Source: Gammaproteobacteria bacterium (GTDB lineage: Bacteria; Pseudomonadota; Gammaproteobacteria; SURF-13). From it: a DNA stretch of 64,000 nucleotides. Each line of letters begins with the position of its first letter. Positions within the stretch are counted from its first letter, which is position 1. The notes below the pieces were generated by a model that saw only the letters and a program-made list of their open reading frames with translations, was not told the origin of the DNA and ran no database searches. A program made the translations under genes and the position numbers. Below, piece by piece: positions 1,710 to 48,173 of the stretch. The stretch lies in the NCBI GenBank assembly GCA_030680605.1, contig JAUXUQ010000001.1, forward strand, positions 203,046 to 267,045. Direction: 5' to 3'.

Positions 1710-2975
1710 ATGAAACATTTTCCACTGGCGCGTGCCGCCGAGTTGCTGGAGTTGATCCTGCGTGGCCGTTTACCCGCCGACCAGCAGATGCAGGCGTATT
1801 TCCGCAAACACCGCAACATGGGCGTCAACGACCGGGGCTTCGTCGCCGAAACCGTTTACGGCTGCCTGCGGCGTAAACGTCTGCTGGAACACTTTCTGGG
1901 CCCGTCACCTGCTGCACAGGACACCGTCGCCGCCTATCTTGCCGCCGTGCAGGGCTGGAGTGCGCGCGCCCTGGAACAGGCAGGCTGCCGCCCCGGGATC
2001 CGGGAGCAGGTGGCGCATATTCGTGCAACCGATGTCTCCGCCCTGCCCGCTGCCGTACGTGCGGATATGCCTGACTGGCTGTACGAGCGGCTGGCGGCGC
2101 AACTGGGCGAGGCGGAAACCCTTGCACTGGCAGCAGCGCTGAATCAACCCGCGCCAGTCGACCTGCGCGCCAATACGCTCAAGACCACCCCCGCAGAAGC
2201 CGCTGCCCTGCTGGAGCAGGAGGGTTACCCCACTGAACCCGGCGCCCTTTCGCCGGTGTGCCTGCGACGGCAGGCGCGCAGCCCCTTGTTTAAAACCCGC
2301 GCCTTCAGCGAGGGGCTGATCGAGATACAGGATGAGGGCAGCCAGCTGCTTGCCCCGCTGCTGGAACCACGACGGGGGGAAATGGTAGTGGACTTCTGCG
2401 CCGGTGCCGGCGGCAAGACATTGCACCTGGGTGCCTTGATGGACAACACCGGCACCCTCTATGCCTTCGACGTCTCTGCCAGACGGCTTGACCAGCTGAA
2501 GCCCCGTCTGCGGCGCGCTGGCCTCGACACAGTACGCAGCGTTGTCATAGAGCATGAACGCGACCCACGCGTATTACGCCTGCGCGGCAAAATAGACCGC
2601 GTGCTGGTGGACGCGCCCTGCACCGGGCTGGGCACACTGCGCCGTAACCCGGACATCAAATGGCGGGCACACGCGCTCGACGAAATCACAGCACTGCAAC
2701 GCCGCATACTGGCGGCGGCGGCCGAACTGGTCAAACCGGGCGGGCGGCTGGTATACGCCACCTGCAGCCCGCTGCACGAAGAGAACGAGGCAGTCATTGA
2801 GGCGTTTCTGGCCGAGCAGCCCGAGTTCAGCATCCTGCCTGCGGGCGCCATTCTGGCACGCAGGCATGTGCCCATCAGCCTCCCGGAAACCACCCCAGCC
2901 CTCCACCTCTACAGCCATCGCCACCCTACCGACACCTACTACGCGGTTGCTCTGGAACGTGCCCCCCGCGCCTGA
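1710..2975 (+). CDS. rsmB: RsmB-family 16S rRNA (cytosine-C5) methyltransferase
   Basis: SAM-dependent methyltransferase, expected to make m5C967 in 16S rRNA. The 421-residue length and two-part architecture fit RsmB: an N-terminal NusB-like helical domain (about 1-130) and a Rossmann methyltransferase domain (about 150-421). Visible motifs are DFCAGAGGKT (SAM-binding loop, 228-237), DAPCTGLGTLRRNPDIKW with C304, and the catalytic YATCSP with C352. The pair of cysteines is the hallmark of RNA m5C enzymes. It begins 13 nt after aguB. In many gammaproteobacteria rsmB sits with fmt; here it does not. RsmF/NOL1 types lack the NusB-like domain. Confidence 0.9.
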   Translation: MKHFPLARAAELLELILRGRLPADQQMQAYFRKHRNMGVNDRGFVAETVYGCLRRKRLLEHFLGPSPAAQDTVAAYLAAVQGWSARALEQAGCRPGIREQVAHIRATDVSALPAAVRADMPDWLYERLAAQLGEAETLALAAALNQPAPVDLRANTLKTTPAEAAALLEQEGYPTEPGALSPVCLRRQARSPLFKTRAFSEGLIEIQDEGSQLLAPLLEPRRGEMVVDFCAGAGGKTLHLGALMDNTGTLYAFDVSARRLDQLKPRLRRAGLDTVRSVVIEHERDPRVLRLRGKIDRVLVDAPCTGLGTLRRNPDIKWRAHALDEITALQRRILAAAAELVKPGGRLVYATCSPLHEENEAVIEAFLAEQPEFSILPAGAILARRHVPISLPETTPALHLYSHRHPTDTYYAVALERAPRA

Positions 2976-2978
2976 TTG

Positions 2979-2987
2979 TGCCATAAT
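2979..2987 (+). promoter_or_regulatory. Candidate extended -10 promoter of the DAHP synthase gene
   Basis: TGC followed by CATAAT forms an extended -10 element just after the rsmB stop codon and 65 bases before the DAHP synthase start. No good -35 is visible, which is allowed for extended -10 promoters. Motif match only. Confidence 0.4.
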
Positions 2988-3052
2988 GCGCGGCTTGAAC
3001 AGGTCGGGCCAGGCCGCTCCGGAAACCATCTAAACCGCAAGCAGATTCCATC

Positions 3053-4168
3053 ATGATACTCATCCTCAAGCCGGACACCGACAAGCACAGCGCTGACTAC
3101 CAGACGCTTATCAAGCATCTCGAAAATCTTTCCGAGATCAAGGTGCGCGTGCATGATGAAGTAGGCGCGCAACGTACCCTTACCGAGATTTACCTGATCG
3201 GTAATACGCTGTCGCTCGGGCTGGAGGACATGAACAATCTGCCCTGTGTCGAACGCGCGGTCCGGGTAACCGAGGAATACCGCATTCTTGGCCGCCACAA
3301 GGATGACAACCGCGACACCCATTTCGACTATAACGGTGTGCGTTTCGGGCAGGACACTCTCAACATTTTCGCCGGCCTGTGTGCCGTCGATACACCCGAA
3401 CACGTCGAAATGATGATGCAGGCCCTGCGCGATCATGGCCAGGTCTGTACCCGTATGGGCGCCTACAAGCCGCGCACCAACCCCTACTCCTTCCAGGGCC
3501 ACGGCAAGAACTGCCTGCCGTATGTCTTCGAGCTCGCAGGCAAATACGGCATCAAGGTCATTGCAATGGAAGTGATGCACGAGTCACACGTGGAGGAAAT
3601 ACGGCAGGCGCTACGCCAGACCGGCAACCCTACCGGCATCGTGCTTCAGATCGGAACCCGCAACACCCAGAACTTCGAGCTGCTCAAGGTGGTCGGACGA
3701 CAGCACGAATTTCCAGTGCTGCTCAAACGCGGCTTCGGCATTACGCTGGAGGAATCACTCAACGCGGCGGAATATCTTGCCAGCGAAGGCAACCGTAATG
3801 TGGTCTTTGGCCTGCGCGGCATGAAGACCAACGCGGGCGATCCACACCGCAATTTCGTCGACTTCGCCCATGTGCCGGTGGTGAAACGTCTCACCCGCAT
3901 GCCGGTCTGCATTGATCCATCCCATTCCGTGGGTACGCGCGACATGGCGCCTGATGGCATCCTCGACATTGTGCATGTGGCTGCACAGGGTGTCGTTGCC
4001 GGGGCCAACATGATACTGATAGACTTTCACCCGGCGCCGCACAAGGCGCTGGTGGACGGACCGCAGGCACTCACGCTGAAAGAGCTGCCCTGGTTCCTCG
4101 AAGACGTGCGCATTGCGCGCGAGGCCTACGAGCAGCGCCGCGCCAACGCCAAAACCTTGCTGACCTAA
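3053..4168 (+). CDS. 3-deoxy-7-phosphoheptulonate synthase, type I-beta
   Basis: Condenses phosphoenolpyruvate and erythrose 4-phosphate to DAHP, the entry to the shikimate pathway. The 371-residue protein has an N-terminal ferredoxin-like segment (about 1-75; starts MILILKPDTD), typical of the regulatory domain of Thermotoga/Bacillus-type (I-beta) enzymes. A KDO8P-synthase-like TIM barrel follows. Barrel motifs include AGLCAVDTPE with metal-ligand C110, the PEP/E4P-binding KPRTNPYSFQG, and the C-terminal CIDPSHSVGTRD. This differs from the AroF/G/H type I-alpha paralogues of enteric bacteria, so I give no E. coli symbol. Feedback control through the N-terminal domain is expected from the family but cannot be read here. 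Confidence 0.9.
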   Translation: MILILKPDTDKHSADYQTLIKHLENLSEIKVRVHDEVGAQRTLTEIYLIGNTLSLGLEDMNNLPCVERAVRVTEEYRILGRHKDDNRDTHFDYNGVRFGQDTLNIFAGLCAVDTPEHVEMMMQALRDHGQVCTRMGAYKPRTNPYSFQGHGKNCLPYVFELAGKYGIKVIAMEVMHESHVEEIRQALRQTGNPTGIVLQIGTRNTQNFELLKVVGRQHEFPVLLKRGFGITLEESLNAAEYLASEGNRNVVFGLRGMKTNAGDPHRNFVDFAHVPVVKRLTRMPVCIDPSHSVGTRDMAPDGILDIVHVAAQGVVAGANMILIDFHPAPHKALVDGPQALTLKELPWFLEDVRIAREAYEQRRANAKTLLT

Positions 4169-4274
4169 AGGAAGCCCCGAAAGCTCCATCCCCGGATTTT
4201 CCAGCGATGAAAGCAACCCACGTGGTTTTTGCCCTTCATCGTTTAATCAAGCACTTGGGCGGTTGATAAACAGC

Positions 4275-4320
4275 GGTGCATCCCTGCACCATAGGGAGCC
4301 TCTGAATAAATAAGAGGCTC
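4275..4320. terminator. Two adjacent hairpins between convergent genes
   Basis: A 6-bp stem GGTGCA/TGCACC with a 4-nt loop (4275-4290) is followed by an 8-bp stem GAGCCTCT/AGAGGCTC with a 9-nt AT-rich loop (4296-4320). They lie between the convergent DAHP synthase and dsbC genes and can fold on either strand. There is no clean T-tract, so their role as terminators rests on position. Confidence 0.55.
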
Positions 4321-4321
4321 T

Positions 4322-5053
4322 CTAGCCTCCAGTGCGTGCGCCGAGAATCTCCGCCAACCTCTCTGGCGGGACGTAGCCCGGTATCAAGCTGCCATCTTCG
4401 AGGATAAGCGTAGGTGTGCCTGAAATACCGATTTTCCTGGCGGCCTGCAGGTGTATCTGCACCGGATCGTCACAGGTTTTCTTCGCCATCTCCTCACCGC
4501 GCTTGGCCCGGGTCATGGCCACCGCGCGATCCTTGGCACACCACACGGAAACCGATTTCTCATATGATGGGGTATCCACCCCGCTACGCGGGAAGGCCAG
4601 GTAACGCATCTTGATGCCCTGCTTGTTGTATGCCGGCATTTCACCGTGCATCTTCCTGCAGTAGGCACAATCCGGGTCGGTAAACACCGTAATCGTATGC
4701 TTTACCTGCTTTGGCGCGTAGACGATCATGCTGTTCTCGTCGATGGCGCTGACTATCTTGAGACGGGCCTGGCTCCGGTTAACTTCGGTCAGGTTCTCGC
4801 CACGCTCGACATCAATCAGATCACCCTGCAACAGATAGCGGCCGTCCAGGGTCATGTACAGCACGGTAGCACCGTAGCCAATCTCATACATGCCCGGAAT
4901 CGCAGACGGCTTGATACTGTCTGGTGTGGTTCCAGGTAACAGGGTGGCCAGTGCAGCCTTGAGCTTGGTGGTATCTTCCACGGGCATAGCGGGTGCGATT
5001 ACGCCCAACCATAGAAAACCCAACAATCCCGCCGCCATTGATTTATGTGTCAC
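4322..5053 (-). CDS. dsbC: Thiol:disulfide interchange protein DsbC
   Basis: Periplasmic disulfide isomerase that reshuffles wrong disulfides. The 243-residue precursor has a signal peptide (about 1-25), an N-terminal dimerisation domain (about 27-90) and a C-terminal thioredoxin fold. The active site is C129-A-Y-C132 in FTDPDCAYCRKMH, and the cis-proline loop is SGTPTL at about 211-216. A second cysteine pair (C172, C194) matches the structural disulfide of E. coli DsbC. DsbC is normally reduced by DsbD, which is not in this window. Convergent with the preceding gene. The isolated position suggests its own promoter. Confidence 0.92.
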   Translation of the reverse strand: MTHKSMAAGLLGFLWLGVIAPAMPVEDTTKLKAALATLLPGTTPDSIKPSAIPGMYEIGYGATVLYMTLDGRYLLQGDLIDVERGENLTEVNRSQARLKIVSAIDENSMIVYAPKQVKHTITVFTDPDCAYCRKMHGEMPAYNKQGIKMRYLAFPRSGVDTPSYEKSVSVWCAKDRAVAMTRAKRGEEMAKKTCDDPVQIHLQAARKIGISGTPTLILEDGSLIPGYVPPERLAEILGARTGG

Positions 5054-9338: not shown

Positions 9339-12314
9339 TCAGGTGCCCGGCAGCGCTTTCTTTTCTCGCAAAAACTGCTCTATCTGCTCCGCCGGAACCG
9401 CTGGAGTGAGCAAGTACCCCTGCATCTCGTCGCATTTGAGCAGCCTCAGCAAATTCGCCTGCTCCTCGGTCTCCACGCCTTCTGCAATCACCCGCAGTTT
9501 CAGGGAATGCGCCAGGGAAATGATGGCGGAGACGATGCTCAGGTCATCAGCGTTGCTGGTCATGTTTATGATGAACGCCCGGTCGATCTTCAAGGCGTTG
9601 ACAGGCAGCTTGGCGATATAGCTGAGCGAGGAGTAGCCGGTGCCGAAGTCGTCGATCGCGATCTCGATGCCCATCTCCCGAATGCCCCGGAGCTTTTGGA
9701 TATTGGCCTCTATGTCTTGCATGACCAGACTCTCGGTTATCTCGAGTTCCAGCCTGCCGGCCACATCTCCGTCACCCTTCACCACGCGCTCCATCATGCT
9801 GACGAAATCTTTCTGTTGTAACTGAACCGGAGAGACATTGACGGCGATCCTTGGAGATCGCAGCCCTTTCGTCTGCCACACCAGAGAATCCGATACCGCT
9901 TTTTCCAAGGCCCACTGACCTGCCTCTATAATCATTCCGGTTTCTTCGAGCAAGGGAATGAACTTCATCGGCGGCACCAGGCCGGTTTCAGGATCGTTCC
10001 AGCGCAGCAGCGCCTCCAACCCGCAAATCCGCCCGTTCTTGAGATTGACCTTGGGCTGGTAATGCAGCACCAGTTGTTCCTGTTCCAGCGCCCGGCGCAG
10101 CTTGTTTTCGAGCGTCAGCTTCTCGGCAGCGCGGGCATTGAACTCAGGAGCGTAAAACAGGTACCTGTCGCCGGAAAGCTTGGCTTTTCCCAGCGCCGCA
10201 TCGGCATTGCGTAACAGGGTCTCGGCGTCCTCGCCGTCGGTGGGATAACACGATACCCCTATCCTCGCCGAAACGTGCAGCTCCTGCCCACCGATCAGGA
10301 ACGACTGATCCCGAATCGCCGACAACATACGTTCCAGGACATGAACGATGTTTACTTTTTCATCATGGCGGCGGGAGACGATGCCGAAGTAGTCGGCTGA
10401 AAAATGGGCAAGGATGTCCGTTCCACCGAGCACTCCCTGCAGCCGCTGCGCGACCTGGCGCAACAGATCGTCGCCAACCTGCCGGCCCAGGGTTTCATTG
10501 ATGCTCCTGAATCGATTGAGGTTGAACATGACTACGGGAAATACTTTATGATCACGGTATGCGGCGCCGATTCGCTGTTCGACCCGATCCTGGAGCAGCG
10601 CCCGATTCGGCAGGCCGGTAATCACATCATAGTAGGCGAGATAATTAAGCCTCTCCTCCTTTTCGAGCTTATCCATGGTGAATGAAATGTCGCCCGCCAT
10701 CTCGACCAGCAGCCGCATCTCCTCTTCGTCGAAAACACCCGCTTCCGGCGCATAGAGCACGAACACGCCGACCGGCCGCCCCTCTACAATCAGCGGAAAC
10801 ACTGCCACGGAGCGATAACCGCGGCTCAATGCCTCGTTACACAAGATATTCATGCGATCATCCGATGCGATATCGTTGCAGATCACCGGCTTCGCCTGTG
10901 TGATCGCCTCCGCCGTCAACCGGCAGTTTCCAGGGGTATCGGCCGCGGCGGTCAGGTTGATCTGATCCAGATACCCGTCGTCGCGGCCTGCTCTGGCGAC
11001 CGGCGTGACCTGCTGCGTGTCCACGTCAAACGTGCCCATCCACGCGAACGTGAACTGGCCATGCTTCACCGCGATGCGGCAGGCTTCGTCGAACAGTTCC
11101 TGAGGCTCGCGAACACGCACAATCGTCGTGTTGATGCCACTCAGAACTGCGTACACGCGGTTGAGGCGCATGACCCTGGCCTCCGCGCGCTTGCGCTCCT
11201 CGATCTCTGCAGTGAGGGCTGCGGTACGCTGTTCCACCAGGCTTTCCAGGTGCTCGTGCAGCCGGGCGCGCTCCAAGGCGATGGCGACCTGGTTGCCCAC
11301 GCCGTGCAGCGTTCTCAGGTCGTCTTCATCGAACAGCGTTTCGTCGGCGCCGACCAGGTTCATGATTCCCAGACGGCGGTCGCCGATCCACAGCGGAACG
11401 CTGGCATGGTAACGCAGGCCGTGCGCCTCGCCGTTTATCCTGCGTAGCCGCTCGCATTCCATAATATTGGTTGCGCCGTCGAGCTGGCCGGAAAGGAACT
11501 GGCGCCGGCACAGGCAATCGCCCTCGAACGCCCCGGTCGCCTCTAGCGCGGGAGGCAGGTTGCGCGCGGCCGCGATGCGGAAACCGGTATCGTTTTCGTG
11601 CAGGACGATCCAGCCGGCGCGGACACCGGGCAGATCCAACGCCCGCTCCAGCGCTTTATTGGCCACCTCATGCTCGGTGGCCGCGGCGTTTAAACCCGCC
11701 GCGACGCGGTATAGCCCGCTGAGTGACTGGTTGGAGTGCGCGAGCTCGCGCTGCCGTGTTTTGAGTTCCTCATTGAGGTGAACCGCCTCCTCGTAAATCG
11801 AAATCAGCAGATCCACGATCTGCTGGCGCTCGGCGGTGATGAAATGTTTCTGGCCGCCCAGCAGGATCTCCACCCCCATCTGCATCTTTTGATTCTTGCG
11901 CAGCTCGCAGTTCATCAGGATGTAATCAATGCGCGCGAGCAGGTATTTTTTGTCGTACGGCTTGCGGATAAAGTTGTCTGCACCGCACTCCAGGCCCTTC
12001 ATGACGTCCTGCACGCCGACAAGCGAGGTCACCAGGATCACCGGAACATCCTTCAGCTTCTTGTCTGACTTGATGGTCTTGCACAGGGTATAGCCGTCCA
12101 TCCGCGGCATGACGATGTCGCTGATGACCAGCGCCGGCTTGCGCCGGCGCGCTTCGGCAAGCGCCTGCTCGCCGTCGGCCGCGTGGGTGACATGGAAATC
12201 GCGCTCTTCGAGCAGATGTGTGAGCTGCTCGGCCTGCGTGGGGCTGTCCTCGACGATCAGGACTTTCGTTCTTTGCCGCTCGGATTTCTTACCCGATCTT
12301 GGTTTGGCGTTCAT
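9339..12314 (-). CDS. Response regulator with REC-GAF-GAF-degenerate GGDEF-EAL domains
   Basis: Probable output of the adjacent chemosensory operon, acting on c-di-GMP. The 991-residue protein starts at the ATG at 12314, with AAGGAGG 9 nt upstream; the GTG at 12323 would touch that ribosome site. Domains: REC (about 15-140; D66 in SDIVMPRMDGY, K in FIRKPYD), a helical linker, two GAF domains (about 200-350 and 390-550), GGDEF (about 565-720) and EAL (about 730-985). The GGDEF signature is replaced by SADYF, and the metal-binding DLD is NLN (FNLNRF), so cyclase activity is unlikely. The EAL domain keeps LEALLRW, NVSPVQL, ELEITES, AIDDFGTGYSSL, LKIDRAFI and AEGVETEEQ, so phosphodiesterase activity is likely. 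Last gene of the operon. Confidence 0.92.
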   Translation of the reverse strand: MNAKPRSGKKSERQRTKVLIVEDSPTQAEQLTHLLEERDFHVTHAADGEQALAEARRRKPALVISDIVMPRMDGYTLCKTIKSDKKLKDVPVILVTSLVGVQDVMKGLECGADNFIRKPYDKKYLLARIDYILMNCELRKNQKMQMGVEILLGGQKHFITAERQQIVDLLISIYEEAVHLNEELKTRQRELAHSNQSLSGLYRVAAGLNAAATEHEVANKALERALDLPGVRAGWIVLHENDTGFRIAAARNLPPALEATGAFEGDCLCRRQFLSGQLDGATNIMECERLRRINGEAHGLRYHASVPLWIGDRRLGIMNLVGADETLFDEDDLRTLHGVGNQVAIALERARLHEHLESLVEQRTAALTAEIEERKRAEARVMRLNRVYAVLSGINTTIVRVREPQELFDEACRIAVKHGQFTFAWMGTFDVDTQQVTPVARAGRDDGYLDQINLTAAADTPGNCRLTAEAITQAKPVICNDIASDDRMNILCNEALSRGYRSVAVFPLIVEGRPVGVFVLYAPEAGVFDEEEMRLLVEMAGDISFTMDKLEKEERLNYLAYYDVITGLPNRALLQDRVEQRIGAAYRDHKVFPVVMFNLNRFRSINETLGRQVGDDLLRQVAQRLQGVLGGTDILAHFSADYFGIVSRRHDEKVNIVHVLERMLSAIRDQSFLIGGQELHVSARIGVSCYPTDGEDAETLLRNADAALGKAKLSGDRYLFYAPEFNARAAEKLTLENKLRRALEQEQLVLHYQPKVNLKNGRICGLEALLRWNDPETGLVPPMKFIPLLEETGMIIEAGQWALEKAVSDSLVWQTKGLRSPRIAVNVSPVQLQQKDFVSMMERVVKGDGDVAGRLELEITESLVMQDIEANIQKLRGIREMGIEIAIDDFGTGYSSLSYIAKLPVNALKIDRAFIINMTSNADDLSIVSAIISLAHSLKLRVIAEGVETEEQANLLRLLKCDEMQGYLLTPAVPAEQIEQFLREKKALPGT

Positions 12315-40042: not shown

Positions 40043-40516
40043 CTAGAACGGGATATCATCATCGAAGCTGTCGGCCTTGCCGCCCACCGCCTGCTCCATC
40101 TCCCCTGCATTGGCCTTGGCGCCACCACCCTTGGCACCGGCTGGCTTGTCCGCATAGGAGGCCGAACCACCGCCGCCCTTGCTGCCCAGCATCTGCATCT
40201 CGTTGGCAATGATCTCGGTGGTGTAGCGATCGGTGCCGGTGTTCTTGTCCTGCCACTTGCGGGTACGCAGACTGCCTTCGACATAGACCTGTGATCCCTT
40301 CTTAAGATATTCTCCAACAATCTCAGCCAACCTGTTGTAAAACACTACATTATGCCACTCGGTGCGCTCCTGCTGCTCGCCACTGGTCTTGTCCTTCCAC
40401 GACTCGCTGGTGGCAATGGTGATGTTCGCTACCGCGCCGCCGCTCGGCATATAGCGTATTTCCGGGTCTTTACCCAGGTTGCCGACCAGAATTACCTTGT
40501 TAATACCCCTTGCCAT
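40043..40516 (-). CDS. ssb: Single-stranded DNA-binding protein
   Basis: 157-residue SSB: OB fold (about 1-110; [62 protein letters not shown]), a short Gly/Ala/Lys linker, and the acidic C-terminal tip DSFDDDIPF that docks SSB partners (RecO, PriA, ExoI and others). AGGAGAG precedes the ATG. The tip closely matches the C-terminus of the reverse transcriptase at 44982-46544. Confidence 0.97.
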
Positions 40517-44981: not shown

Positions 44982-46544
44982 ATGTCTCAACCTCTTAAGA
45001 CAGTGATCACCCCAGAGAGCCTCGACTTTGCTCTTAGGCACATTTCACACTACTATGACACCGACTTCTACCCCAGAACTGAAGAGTTTTTTGCAATTAA
45101 GTATTTCTGGGATGAGGTGAAAGAATATATTCTTAACTCAGATTTAGATGATGTTCTGTCCGCAGCCCCATTGGTCGATCCCTGGCCCAAGACGAGAGGT
45201 GGGTTCAGAATAGTTCACCGCATTGAGCCGCTCGACTCCCTTATTTACACAGCACTAGCAAAAACCGTTGCACCAGCGGTGGAGACTGCTAGGGCAAATC
45301 CCGAAGTGGCATGCTCATACAGAATCTCTGAAAGCGACACCAGCTTCTTCACAGATGGTTCTGGTTTTAATGTGTACAGGGAGCGCTGTGAGAATTTATC
45401 TAAAACATACCAATACGTACTATCCACAGATATATCAGATTTCTATAACAAGATTTACTTACATAGACTCCAAAATGCAATTCAGTCGGCTACCGACACT
45501 CCAACTGGTATATCCAAGAGGATTGAATACTTCCTCACCGCGCTAAATACAAGAGCTTCTCAGGGAATCCCTGTCGGGCCAGCGGCGAGCATAATAATGG
45601 CAGAAGCCACGCTTATTGATGCAGACCAATTTATAGATGGACGAGGCTTTGAGCACGTTCGATACGTAGATGACTTTCGAATATTCGGAAATTCTCAACA
45701 AGATTTGCAATCGCTCCTACAAGATTTCTCCGTTTACATGCATGAGAATCAGCGACTTTCTCTTTCTGCAGAGAAAACATACATCATAAGTTCTGATGAC
45801 TTCCTTAACAAGGAGCTCAACAACCAGTACCAACTGGAGAAATTAGAAATTTTAGCTGAAATCGAGGTCGTCAACCCCTACACAATGGAAGTTGAGGACT
45901 TGGATTTGGTTGTTATAGAGAATGCGGGAGAGCTTCTTCTGGACGCGCTTGTGCGAATCAGGAAATTCCAAACAGTGGACCTCGGAGTGATCCGAGCGAT
46001 AGTACGTCGAGCAAAAGCACACGGAATTAGAGAGATAGCCACGTACCTTATAGAAAATATTGAATTCTTTTCGGCAGCCGTTAATGACATTGCCCTCTAC
46101 CTTGACACTATAACCGATAGCGACTTCATCTCTTCAAACACGGTACTATTGGAGAAACTTTGCGAAAGCCCCGCCGCCAACTTGCGGGCCGTTAGGCTGT
46201 GGCTTGAGTGGTATTTCTCTCGTCACATATCGATTTTAAAAATACCTAAAGCTCACGCGCTTGTTTTCTCAAGCAAGCGACTACGACCGCAAGCTCGAGC
46301 CGCAATAACCTCGAACAACCAAGCGTGGGTGAAAGATAGAAAGAACCAACTTCTTCACTATGCATACTGGGATAGGCGCTCTATTTTCTTGGCCGCCAAA
46401 GTACTATCCAAAGATGAACGGGAAAGGTGGCTGACTCCACTTATCAAAGGGGATAGCCTAGGCCAAATGGATAAATGGATGGCTCGGTGGGTTCTTGCGG
46501 GCTCTCCAGACAGCTCCGACTTTGATGATGATTTACCGTTTTGA
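44982..46544 (+). CDS. Abi/UG-type (defence-type) reverse transcriptase with an SSB-like C-terminal tip
   Basis: 520 residues. The RT domain (about 55-300) shows motif A TDISDFYNKIY with D150, the motif B region SQGIPVGPAAS (193-203), motif C YVDD (228-231) and motif D LSAEKTYI. The layout (RIVHRIEPLDSLIYTAL, then motif A followed by YLHRL, then GIPVGP) is that of Abi/UG reverse transcriptases used in phage defence, not of retrons or group II introns: no maturase X domain, no HNH and no msr/msd. The C-terminal half (about 310-505) is helical, as in the HEAT-like region of that clade. The last residues SDFDDDLPF copy the SSB acidic tip. The gene is visibly AT-richer than uvrA next to it, which suggests transfer. 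Subclass not determined. Confidence 0.88.
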   Translation: MSQPLKTVITPESLDFALRHISHYYDTDFYPRTEEFFAIKYFWDEVKEYILNSDLDDVLSAAPLVDPWPKTRGGFRIVHRIEPLDSLIYTALAKTVAPAVETARANPEVACSYRISESDTSFFTDGSGFNVYRERCENLSKTYQYVLSTDISDFYNKIYLHRLQNAIQSATDTPTGISKRIEYFLTALNTRASQGIPVGPAASIIMAEATLIDADQFIDGRGFEHVRYVDDFRIFGNSQQDLQSLLQDFSVYMHENQRLSLSAEKTYIISSDDFLNKELNNQYQLEKLEILAEIEVVNPYTMEVEDLDLVVIENAGELLLDALVRIRKFQTVDLGVIRAIVRRAKAHGIREIATYLIENIEFFSAAVNDIALYLDTITDSDFISSNTVLLEKLCESPAANLRAVRLWLEWYFSRHISILKIPKAHALVFSSKRLRPQARAAITSNNQAWVKDRKNQLLHYAYWDRRSIFLAAKVLSKDERERWLTPLIKGDSLGQMDKWMARWVLAGSPDSSDFDDDLPF

Positions 46545-46594
46545 TCTTTGATTGCGTTTAAGGGGTTAGCAAGCACGGGCTCGGAGAGAACATA

Positions 46595-46682
46595 AGAACA
46601 TAGGGGTCAGGCCTTACAATTTAGAACATAGGGGTCAGGCCTTACAATTTACATCCATGTCAAATGTAAGGCCTGGCCCTAT
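46595..46682. repeat. REP-like array: two 28-bp direct copies and one inverted copy
   Basis: Positions 46595-46622 and 46623-46650 are identical 28-bp units in perfect tandem with core GGGGTCAGGCCTTAC. Positions 46662-46682 hold an inverted, slightly diverged copy (GTAAGGCCTGGCCCTAT), so copy 2 and the inverted copy can form a long hairpin. The core resembles the terminal repeats of the RAYT element at 47239-48173 (GGGGTCAAGTCTTGACA), suggesting a related REP/BIME family. The rest of the 221-nt gap shows nothing else clear. Confidence 0.85.
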
Positions 46683-46765
46683 TATTCCATCACCTTGACG
46701 CAATATTTGGCGTCAAATAGGATGGCTACTTTACGTTAGGCCAATTATGAAACGAAGGGGGCGCA

Positions 46766-47224
46766 ATGGGACAAGATTACAGATCGATTGACCCGGACTG
46801 GCGTTATTGCGCTAAAAAGGAGCTACTAGCTAAGAAAAAACCAAATTTTTATCAACGAATGGGGAAACCCCATGTCTTTTGGTTTGGCATCTTCTGTCTA
46901 ATCGCTATGATTGTAAACGCTCGAGAGCATGACTTATTTGGGGTTTCAGCCTTCTCAGCTATAGGCGGGATTGTATTCTATATTGCGTTCACCTCCATTG
47001 GCGATCTCGTTGACGGCGCGGTCTGTCACATAATGATCGACGGAATCGATTTCGGATACCGTATCGATGCCGGGGATCTTGAAGATTTCCTGTATTGCCA
47101 GTTTGAAAACAGAAAAATTGAGGTCGAGAAGACAGGGTACAGCGTAAGCACGCTACCTTCCGGTGATTTCTGGAAAAAAGAACGTCGTAGAATCAAAGAA
47201 TCAAAAGAATCAATAGGGTCATGA
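46766..47224 (+). CDS. Small two-helix membrane protein
   Basis: 152 residues; no family recognised. The ATG is preceded by AAGGGGG. A basic N-terminal segment (1-34) leads into two hydrophobic helices (about 36-50 and 58-80: FWFGIFCLIAMIVNA, then the GVSAFSAIGGIVFYIAFTSI region) and a soluble tail of about 70 residues (DGIDFGYRIDAGDLEDFLYCQ) with a very charged end KKERRRIKESKESIGS. It lies between the RT and the RAYT transposase in the accessory island, separated from the RT by the repeat array. It may be a membrane effector linked to the RT, but neither distance nor sequence proves it. Confidence 0.65.
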   Translation: MGQDYRSIDPDWRYCAKKELLAKKKPNFYQRMGKPHVFWFGIFCLIAMIVNAREHDLFGVSAFSAIGGIVFYIAFTSIGDLVDGAVCHIMIDGIDFGYRIDAGDLEDFLYCQFENRKIEVEKTGYSVSTLPSGDFWKKERRRIKESKESIGS

Positions 47225-47238
47225 CATCTAAACGGCAT

Positions 47239-48173
47239 AAACGGGGTCAAGTCTTGACATCACGGTTTTGGATCGGCTAATCTCTGTCCATGGCTCGCCC
47301 CCTACGACTTGAATTCCCCGGCGCGATCTATCACGTCACTTCACGCGGCAACGCGCGGAATGCGATATTTCTCGATAATGAGGACCGGGGGTTGTTTCTT
47401 GGTTGCCTCGGCGAAGTAATTGCTCGCTTTGGCTGGCTGTGTCATGCGTATTGCCTGATGGACAATCACTATCATCTGCTTATCGAGACGCCGGAGGGCA
47501 ACCTCTCGCTGGGCATGCGGCAATTGAACGGCGTCTATACCCAGCGCTTCAACCGGCGTCACGGACGTGTGGGGCATGTGCTCCAGGGACGATTCAAGGC
47601 GATTGTGGTGGATCGTGACAGCTACCTGCTGGAGTTGTGCCGCTATGTCGTGCTAAACCCGATACGTGCCGGTATGGTAGAGAAAATTGAGCGCTACGCT
47701 TGGAGCAGTTACCCAGCAACGATGGGGCTGGCCAAATGTCCGGCGTGGCTCAAAACGGACTGGGTGCTGGGCCAATTTGCCAAAACGCGTGCCGTAGCCA
47801 GACGACGCTACGCTGAGTTTGCGGCAGAAGGCGGGGGACTTCCGTCCCCGTGGCCTGCGGTGAGAGGCCAGGCGCTGCTGGGCTCGGAAGCCTTTGTGGA
47901 GAAAATACGCCCGTTGCTTGAAGGGAAGGACGAGATAAAGGAGATTCCACGTGCCCAACGCCTGCTGCACCGGCCAAGCCTGAGGAAGTTGTTTACCAAG
48001 GCGGTTCAAAGCGATAAGGCCTTGCGCGACGAGGCCATTCGAAAAGCGTATCTGGACTATGGCTATACCATGGCGACGATTGCTCGTCATGCCGGGGTGC
48101 ATTATTCTACGGTGAGCAAAGTCATCAAGGGCGAGAGGTGAAAACTGTGATGTCAAGACCTGACCCTGTTTTT
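47239..48173 (+). mobile_element. RAYT element with terminal inverted repeats
   Basis: The transposase gene is bounded by imperfect inverted repeats of about 32 bp: the left at 47239-47270 (core GGGGTCAAGTCTTGACATCA) and the right at 48141-48173 (core TGATGTCAAGACCTGACCC). The right repeat begins at the last base of the transposase stop codon. A T-rich CTGTTTTT repeat follows (48166-48197). Confidence 0.8.
47290..48141 (+). CDS. REP-associated tyrosine transposase (RAYT, Y1/HUH)
   Basis: 283 residues. The Y1 transposase domain of the IS200/REP group is about 1-165. It starts MARPLRLEFPGAIYHVTSRGNAR, a family signature. The HUH metal site is LMDNHYHLLIETPEGNLS, and the likely nucleophile Tyr lies in CRYVVLNPIRAGMV. 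HVLQGRFKAIVVDRDSYLLELC is also typical. The C-terminal part (about 220-283) has a helix-turn-helix of the DnaA/ParB-like kind (MATIARHAGVHYSTVSKVIKG), which probably recognises the REP hairpins. The frame is intact, so it may be active. Confidence 0.93.
   Translation: MARPLRLEFPGAIYHVTSRGNARNAIFLDNEDRGLFLGCLGEVIARFGWLCHAYCLMDNHYHLLIETPEGNLSLGMRQLNGVYTQRFNRRHGRVGHVLQGRFKAIVVDRDSYLLELCRYVVLNPIRAGMVEKIERYAWSSYPATMGLAKCPAWLKTDWVLGQFAKTRAVARRRYAEFAAEGGGLPSPWPAVRGQALLGSEAFVEKIRPLLEGKDEIKEIPRAQRLLHRPSLRKLFTKAVQSDKALRDEAIRKAYLDYGYTMATIARHAGVHYSTVSKVIKGER

Follow-up and report, generated by a model that had tools for sequence, protein, structure and literature searches.

An SSB-like tip at the C-terminus of a Drt8-family reverse transcriptase from a gammaproteobacterial genome

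In SSB, the C-terminal tip serves as the recruitment site for at least 17 proteins; conservation within it is highest at the final Pro-Phe, and the linker before it is variable (PMC10018359). Why would a defence-type reverse transcriptase (RT) end in the same way? The question is raised by a gene in a 64,000-nucleotide stretch of gammaproteobacterial DNA (hereafter, the window). An earlier note on this DNA had claimed that the RT ends in an SSB-type tip, and we confirmed that the C-terminus of the RT is SDFDDDLPF and that of the SSB encoded in the same window is DSFDDDIPF. In the open-access literature that we searched, an SSB-like tip on any reverse transcriptase is unreported.

Identity of the RT and its C-terminal tip

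We compared the predicted protein with family profiles and found that the PADLOC Drt8 profile scored 454.9 bits, against 121.9 bits for the runner-up family; the other members of the tip-bearing clade described below scored 442–455 bits with the same profile. The motifs TDISDFY, SQGIPVGP and YVDD are intact, and the C-terminal letters of the ORF are SPDSSDFDDDLPF, followed by a stop (Table 1). RVT_1 was the sole Pfam domain, with neither an OB-fold/SSB domain nor a nuclease domain among the Pfam matches, so the protein is one that carries an SSB tag and not an SSB. Positions 3–490 of the Drt8 profile (493 positions) aligned to residues 10–505 of the RT, which places the tip outside the body common to the family. 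A PD-(D/E)XK domain has been attributed to DRT8 in one paper (PMC12596737), a nuclease that is no part of the PADLOC Drt8 RT profile itself. Since this nuclease is missing here, we refer to the protein as a Drt8-family RT and not as a complete canonical DRT8 system.

Table 1. Positions in the window of the RT gene, its parts and the ssb gene
Feature	Position	Strand	Basis
Chromosomal ssb, for comparison, outside the system	40043..40516	-	Pfam SSB 2.9e-42
SSB tip	40046..40072	-	
Drt8-family reverse transcriptase with SSB-like C-terminal tip	44982..46544	+	520 aa; ORF, PADLOC Drt8, RVT_1
YVDD catalytic motif, residues 228-231	45663..45674	+	
C-terminal helical-repeat region, residues 315-505, last helix 495-505	45924..46496	+	AlphaFold2, blocks mostly 78-94 pLDDT
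Variable linker AGSPDS, residues 506-511	46497..46514	+	
SSB-like acidic tip SDFDDDLPF, residues 512-520, past the end of the Drt8 profile	46515..46541	+	

The rarity of the tip was examined by scanning the 1.87-Mb genome, in all frames and on both strands, for the 15-nt pattern GANNTNCCNTTYTRR, which corresponds to [DE]-[ILVMF]-P-F-stop. Two matches were obtained, one in ssb and the other in the RT gene. Moreover, the retrieved stretches together contained 1,116 distinct ORFs with a length of 100 aa or more; in this set, the strict SSB-like tip was confined to SSBs and to the RT clade, and no RT outside the clade in those stretches carried it. The match between the tips exceeds chance. We also considered that the tip might be a copy of the end of ssb, which lies 4.5 kb from the RT gene, and rejected this because the two genes encode their tips with different codons and relatives of the RT at unrelated loci carry the tip as well.

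The structure of the RT was predicted with AlphaFold2 from an input of seven sequences (mean pLDDT 76.9, pTM 0.78; an earlier input of three sequences gave a pLDDT of 52.7). Residues 509–520 were unstructured in this model, with pLDDT values below 50, and the tip is accordingly a predicted disordered segment; packing of the tip inside the RT fold was not seen in the model, in keeping with the exposed tip assumed in the earlier note. The top Foldseek matches were DRT4, DRT6, AbiK, UG15 and Abi-P2 (E values of about 1e-11 to 1e-10), and a sequence-profile search returned the same group (Abi-P2, AbiK, DRT4/UG15 and DRT6). To our knowledge, none of DRT4, DRT6, AbiK and Abi-P2 bears an SSB-like tip. 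The model and the Foldseek matches together show the class 1 UG/Abi architecture, in which the RT is fused to a C-terminal helical repeat domain. Class 1 UG/Abi RTs that have been studied make DNA without a nucleic-acid template, sometimes primed by protein (PMC13174585; PMC13275509), and by analogy the window RT likely performs untemplated DNA synthesis.

Conservation, distribution and surroundings of the tip

We searched for relatives in 1,730 genomes around a few Pseudomonadota groups, a sample outside which the spread of the tip may differ. The tip-bearing clade comprised eight members, namely the window RT and seven relatives that are 46–78% identical to it, one of which (Nl12) is divided between two contigs. 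The seven tip-bearing RTs of full length grouped as a single clade in a maximum-likelihood tree (support 94/95). Every tip-bearing member has YVDD; DISDFY is replaced by DVADFY in a single member and is present in the others. An SSB-like tip was present in 8/8 members. For example, the RT of Candidatus Nitricoxidireducens (78%) ends in DEFPLDDDLPF, those of Nitrosospira multiformis Nl7 (76%) and Nl12 in YFDDDDNIPF and YFDYDDDIPF, and those of G1351 (78%) and G1590 (76%) in DEFPIEDDIPF and DSFPLDDDFPF, respectively; the two more distant members, from G1293 (about 50%) and G1435 (46%), end in GDFADDLPF and LVDFDDDIPF after much longer linkers. The terminal Pro-Phe and the Asp at position –5 are invariant throughout the clade, and position –3 is always hydrophobic. 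The linker, measured between the conserved WV and the last six residues, ranges from 9 to 27 aa and varies also in sequence, with a pairwise identity per position of mostly 0.1–0.5, and the tip codons vary synonymously, with all three stop codons in use. The earlier note had proposed to test whether a D/E-rich -(I/L)PF end is conserved in close homologues while the linker before it varies; in the clade, we found an acidic (I/L/F)PF end conserved in this way. The pattern shows that purifying selection has kept the tip in all eight members while the linker has drifted.

In Nl12 (G768; L003, L064/L075), an insertion has probably broken up the gene, whose two pieces lie at contig ends; the C-terminal piece retains a perfect DDDIPF.

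Outside the clade, no Drt8 RT that we examined had the tip. The four RTs of the sister group (G1040, G1321, G1437 and G1277; 42–43% identical) stop at WVLETA or a similar sequence, where the last helix of the window RT ends, and the RT of G120 continues, in place of the tip, into a long extension that includes a likely membrane segment. The other Drt8 RTs examined, including four on viral contigs, all lacked the tip, and searches of plasmid and phage collections found no tip-bearing relatives. The expectation that homologues with the same RT domain would share the tip thus held in all members of the clade but failed for the other Drt8 RTs, the sister group included, and we rejected the idea that the tip is a trait of all Drt8. 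Its absence from the sister group and the other Drt8 RTs indicates that the tag is an add-on of one lineage, judging from the sequences compared, and not a general Drt8 feature. Together, the conserved tip, the drifting linker, the tipless sister group and the disordered tail identify the tag as a selected, lineage-specific mimic of the SSB tip.

The tipless relatives have various neighbours and fusions. In G120 (L035, minus strand, 2437–4926), a single frame of 829 aa fuses the Drt8 RT to the likely membrane segment and to another domain, about 270 aa long. The Drt8 RTs in L038 (3669–5810) and L072 (6053–8245) are near-identical and of an alphaproteobacterial type, and each has a HerA/DUF87 ATPase gene immediately upstream; this arrangement suggests a two-gene unit. 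Upstream of the tipless Drt8 RT in L041/L072, the ATPase ends in GDQIPF, probably by chance, as its close homologue in L038 ends in PLPAADAQ. In G291 (L036), an OLD-nuclease-like ATPase gene lies upstream of a tipless Drt8 RT and a homologue of the PD-Lambda-3_A (PD-(D/E)XK) nuclease directly behind it (10784–11266), and the three are a possible multi-gene defence unit. HNH nuclease genes were found beside two of the four tipless sister RTs (L070, 3068–3817, by Pfam; L091, 5416–6243, by eye), and that of G1040 has its HNH gene downstream. On one viral contig (L095, 3964–6013), two ORFs of 317 and 367 aa, with no Pfam or PADLOC match, follow the Drt8 RT after 35 nt.

The tip-bearing RTs lie at unrelated locations: beside uvrA in the window, an IS110-like transposase gene in L001, PEP-CTERM-like and TPR genes in L002, relaxase and ArdC genes in G1351 and a phage-type integrase gene in G1293 (neighbours were named by eye, except relaxase, ArdC and integrase, which were taken from Pfam). 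No shared neighbour or nuclease partner was recognised beside the tip-bearing RTs at the loci examined. Loss of a nuclease partner where the tip was gained was considered and is suggestive only, the numbers being too small. The sequences that flank the RT gene in the window, in L001 and in L002 have no conserved block in common, and Rfam gave no match, although a diverged or distant ncRNA could escape both comparisons. These observations, with the gap of just 121 nt between uvrA and the RT gene, are consistent with a single-gene system. The RT gene and the small ORF that follows it have a G+C content of 44–45%, compared with 58% for the window, and the pair was therefore probably acquired. This low-GC island (44982–47224) holds the RT gene and a 152-aa ORF with a likely membrane segment, for which no family match was found. 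REP-like repeats lie behind the RT (46595–46679; two tandem 28-nt copies and one inverted), and after them a Y1-type (RAYT-like) transposase gene with 31-nt inverted repeats around it (47239–48171); a similar GTGCCTGACCCTATT stretch lies behind the RT in L002.

Possible roles of the tip

What might such a tag do? We give an even chance to the following reading: the gene by itself encodes a Drt8-family defence polymerase with a fold like that of AbiK, DRT4 and DRT6, its lineage has added a short, flexible linker and an SSB-tip mimic, and the tip provides an ExoI-type brake. Docking is the best-supported step; we know of nothing else that would account for acidic residues and an invariant terminal Pro-Phe at the end of a floppy linker. 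Very probably, the tip docks host SSB-interacting proteins onto the RT. The identity of the key partner is proposed with a confidence somewhat short of even, by analogy with other defence RTs: it may be an SSB-tip-dependent single-strand exonuclease, for which ExoI is the best candidate, that trims the product and so acts as a brake.

Under this proposal, the RT would make untemplated ssDNA, and the tip would bring an SSB partner, most likely an ExoI-like single-strand exonuclease, to that product. In an uninfected cell, the docked exonuclease would trim the ssDNA and serve as a built-in brake, or off-switch. A phage would release the brake by inhibiting the exonuclease, by shielding the 3΄ end or by competing for the tip-binding pocket, upon which ssDNA would build up and lead to abortive infection. 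Several precedents bear on these steps. The poly-dA product of DRT9 is degraded by ExoI, and phage gp58 blocks the degradation (PMC12483538); loss of ExoI is synthetically lethal with DRT9, and DRT3 is restrained by RecBCD and triggered by Gam (PMC13174585); and DRT4 is triggered by a phage protein that shields the ssDNA 3΄ end from exonuclease (PMC13213688). According to work cited in PMC10018359, the recognition site of ExoI is the C-terminus of SSB. In an RT that made ssDNA and carried a tag bound by ExoI, the brake would be built in. Slightly more tentatively, the SSB-tip label of the RT may keep an ssDNA exonuclease of the host, or a different SSB partner, tied to the DNA product, so that the host SSB interactome would act as an abortive-infection switch guarded against phage interference. 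Most Drt8 RTs lack the tip, and the sister group is tipless with two of its four members also lacking an HNH neighbour; a tip-based brake would therefore be no general need of Drt8.

Control of the RT's own DNA product by the tip seems more likely than action at forks or on phage ssDNA. The conservation of the tip is equally compatible with any SSB partner, and the SSB tip is a common tag for replication, restart and repair proteins (PMC10018359); the tip could thus place the RT at replication forks or phage ssDNA via RecO, PriA, the polymerase chi subunit or primase, where the RT would act on DNA ends or block the partners. However, related class 1 enzymes work via free or protein-linked DNA and not at forks (PMC13174585), and no sequence feature indicates a fork partner, so that we regard this as unlikely.

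Docking might also serve attack instead of restraint, the tip substituting for a dedicated nuclease and directing the host's nucleases or helicases at phage DNA or at the host's own. This would fit the PD-(D/E)XK domain described with DRT8 (PMC12596737), the nuclease homologue and the HNH gene next to the tipless RTs of G291 and G1040, and the lack of a recognised nuclease partner beside the tip-bearing RTs. Nevertheless, the numbers are small, an HNH neighbour occurs in just two of the four tipless sisters (one of them assigned by eye), and neighbours in defence islands can be coincidental; we consider this role quite improbable.

A sensor or decoy role, to which we assign a still lower probability, would have the RT tip vie with host or phage SSB for the pockets of their partners. 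Phage SSB or abundant ssDNA would alter the supply of SSB, and the resulting shift in partner occupancy of the RT would turn the defence on. The tip would by design compete with SSB, and enrichment of T5 SSB with DRT9 has been seen in infected cells (PMC12483538); yet SSB is abundant and tetrameric, and a lone RT tip would therefore compete poorly unless oligomerisation added avidity.

Slightly less credit still is due to a partner-free role, in which the acidic tail would bind the RT's own nucleic-acid cleft and gate synthesis. In SSB itself, the tip and DNA can be competitors for the core (PMC10018359), but an acidic gate would need charge and not an invariant terminal Pro-Phe, and the tail was unpacked in the AlphaFold2 model. 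Finally, that the tip is a functionless residue of chance or inheritance is highly improbable: the RTs of the window, L001, L002, G1351 and G1590 are 76–78% identical, so their similarity partly reflects recent descent, but the linker has diverged in these same sequences and the tip has not, and two members at 46–51% identity keep the tip after a threefold longer linker.

How DRT8 works has yet to be established, according to PMC13213688, and a conserved docking tag for host proteins would make this question directly accessible to experiment. Should ExoI or a different SSB partner be recruited by the tag, defence RTs that are restrained by host nucleases would be linked to the SSB interaction hub, and the case would show that a defence enzyme can evolve its own restraint into itself.

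Comparison with known systems

The window RT can be placed beside four kinds of known system. It matches the DRT8 profile (PADLOC Drt8, PDLC03783) over its full length and has the active-site motifs, but it adds a linker and an SSB-like tip past the profile end and is a lone gene without the PD-(D/E)XK nuclease attributed to DRT8. DRT4 (UG15), DRT6, AbiK and Abi-P2 are its best fold matches, sharing the RT and the helical repeat domain, although the window RT is just 14–18% identical to them. With the SSB C-terminal tip (SSB-Ct, MDFDDDIPF), it shares the same residues, also at the very end of the chain and behind a linker that varies and is probably disordered, with Pro-Phe invariant in both; the difference is that the protein bearing the tip is here a polymerase instead of an OB-fold SSB. 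As with DRT9 and ExoI or DRT3 and RecBCD, where the DNA products of defence RTs are held down by host exonucleases until a phage interferes, the product of the window RT may be under the control of a host nuclease; whereas a docking tag has not been described in those systems, the tag of the window RT would itself recruit the nuclease.
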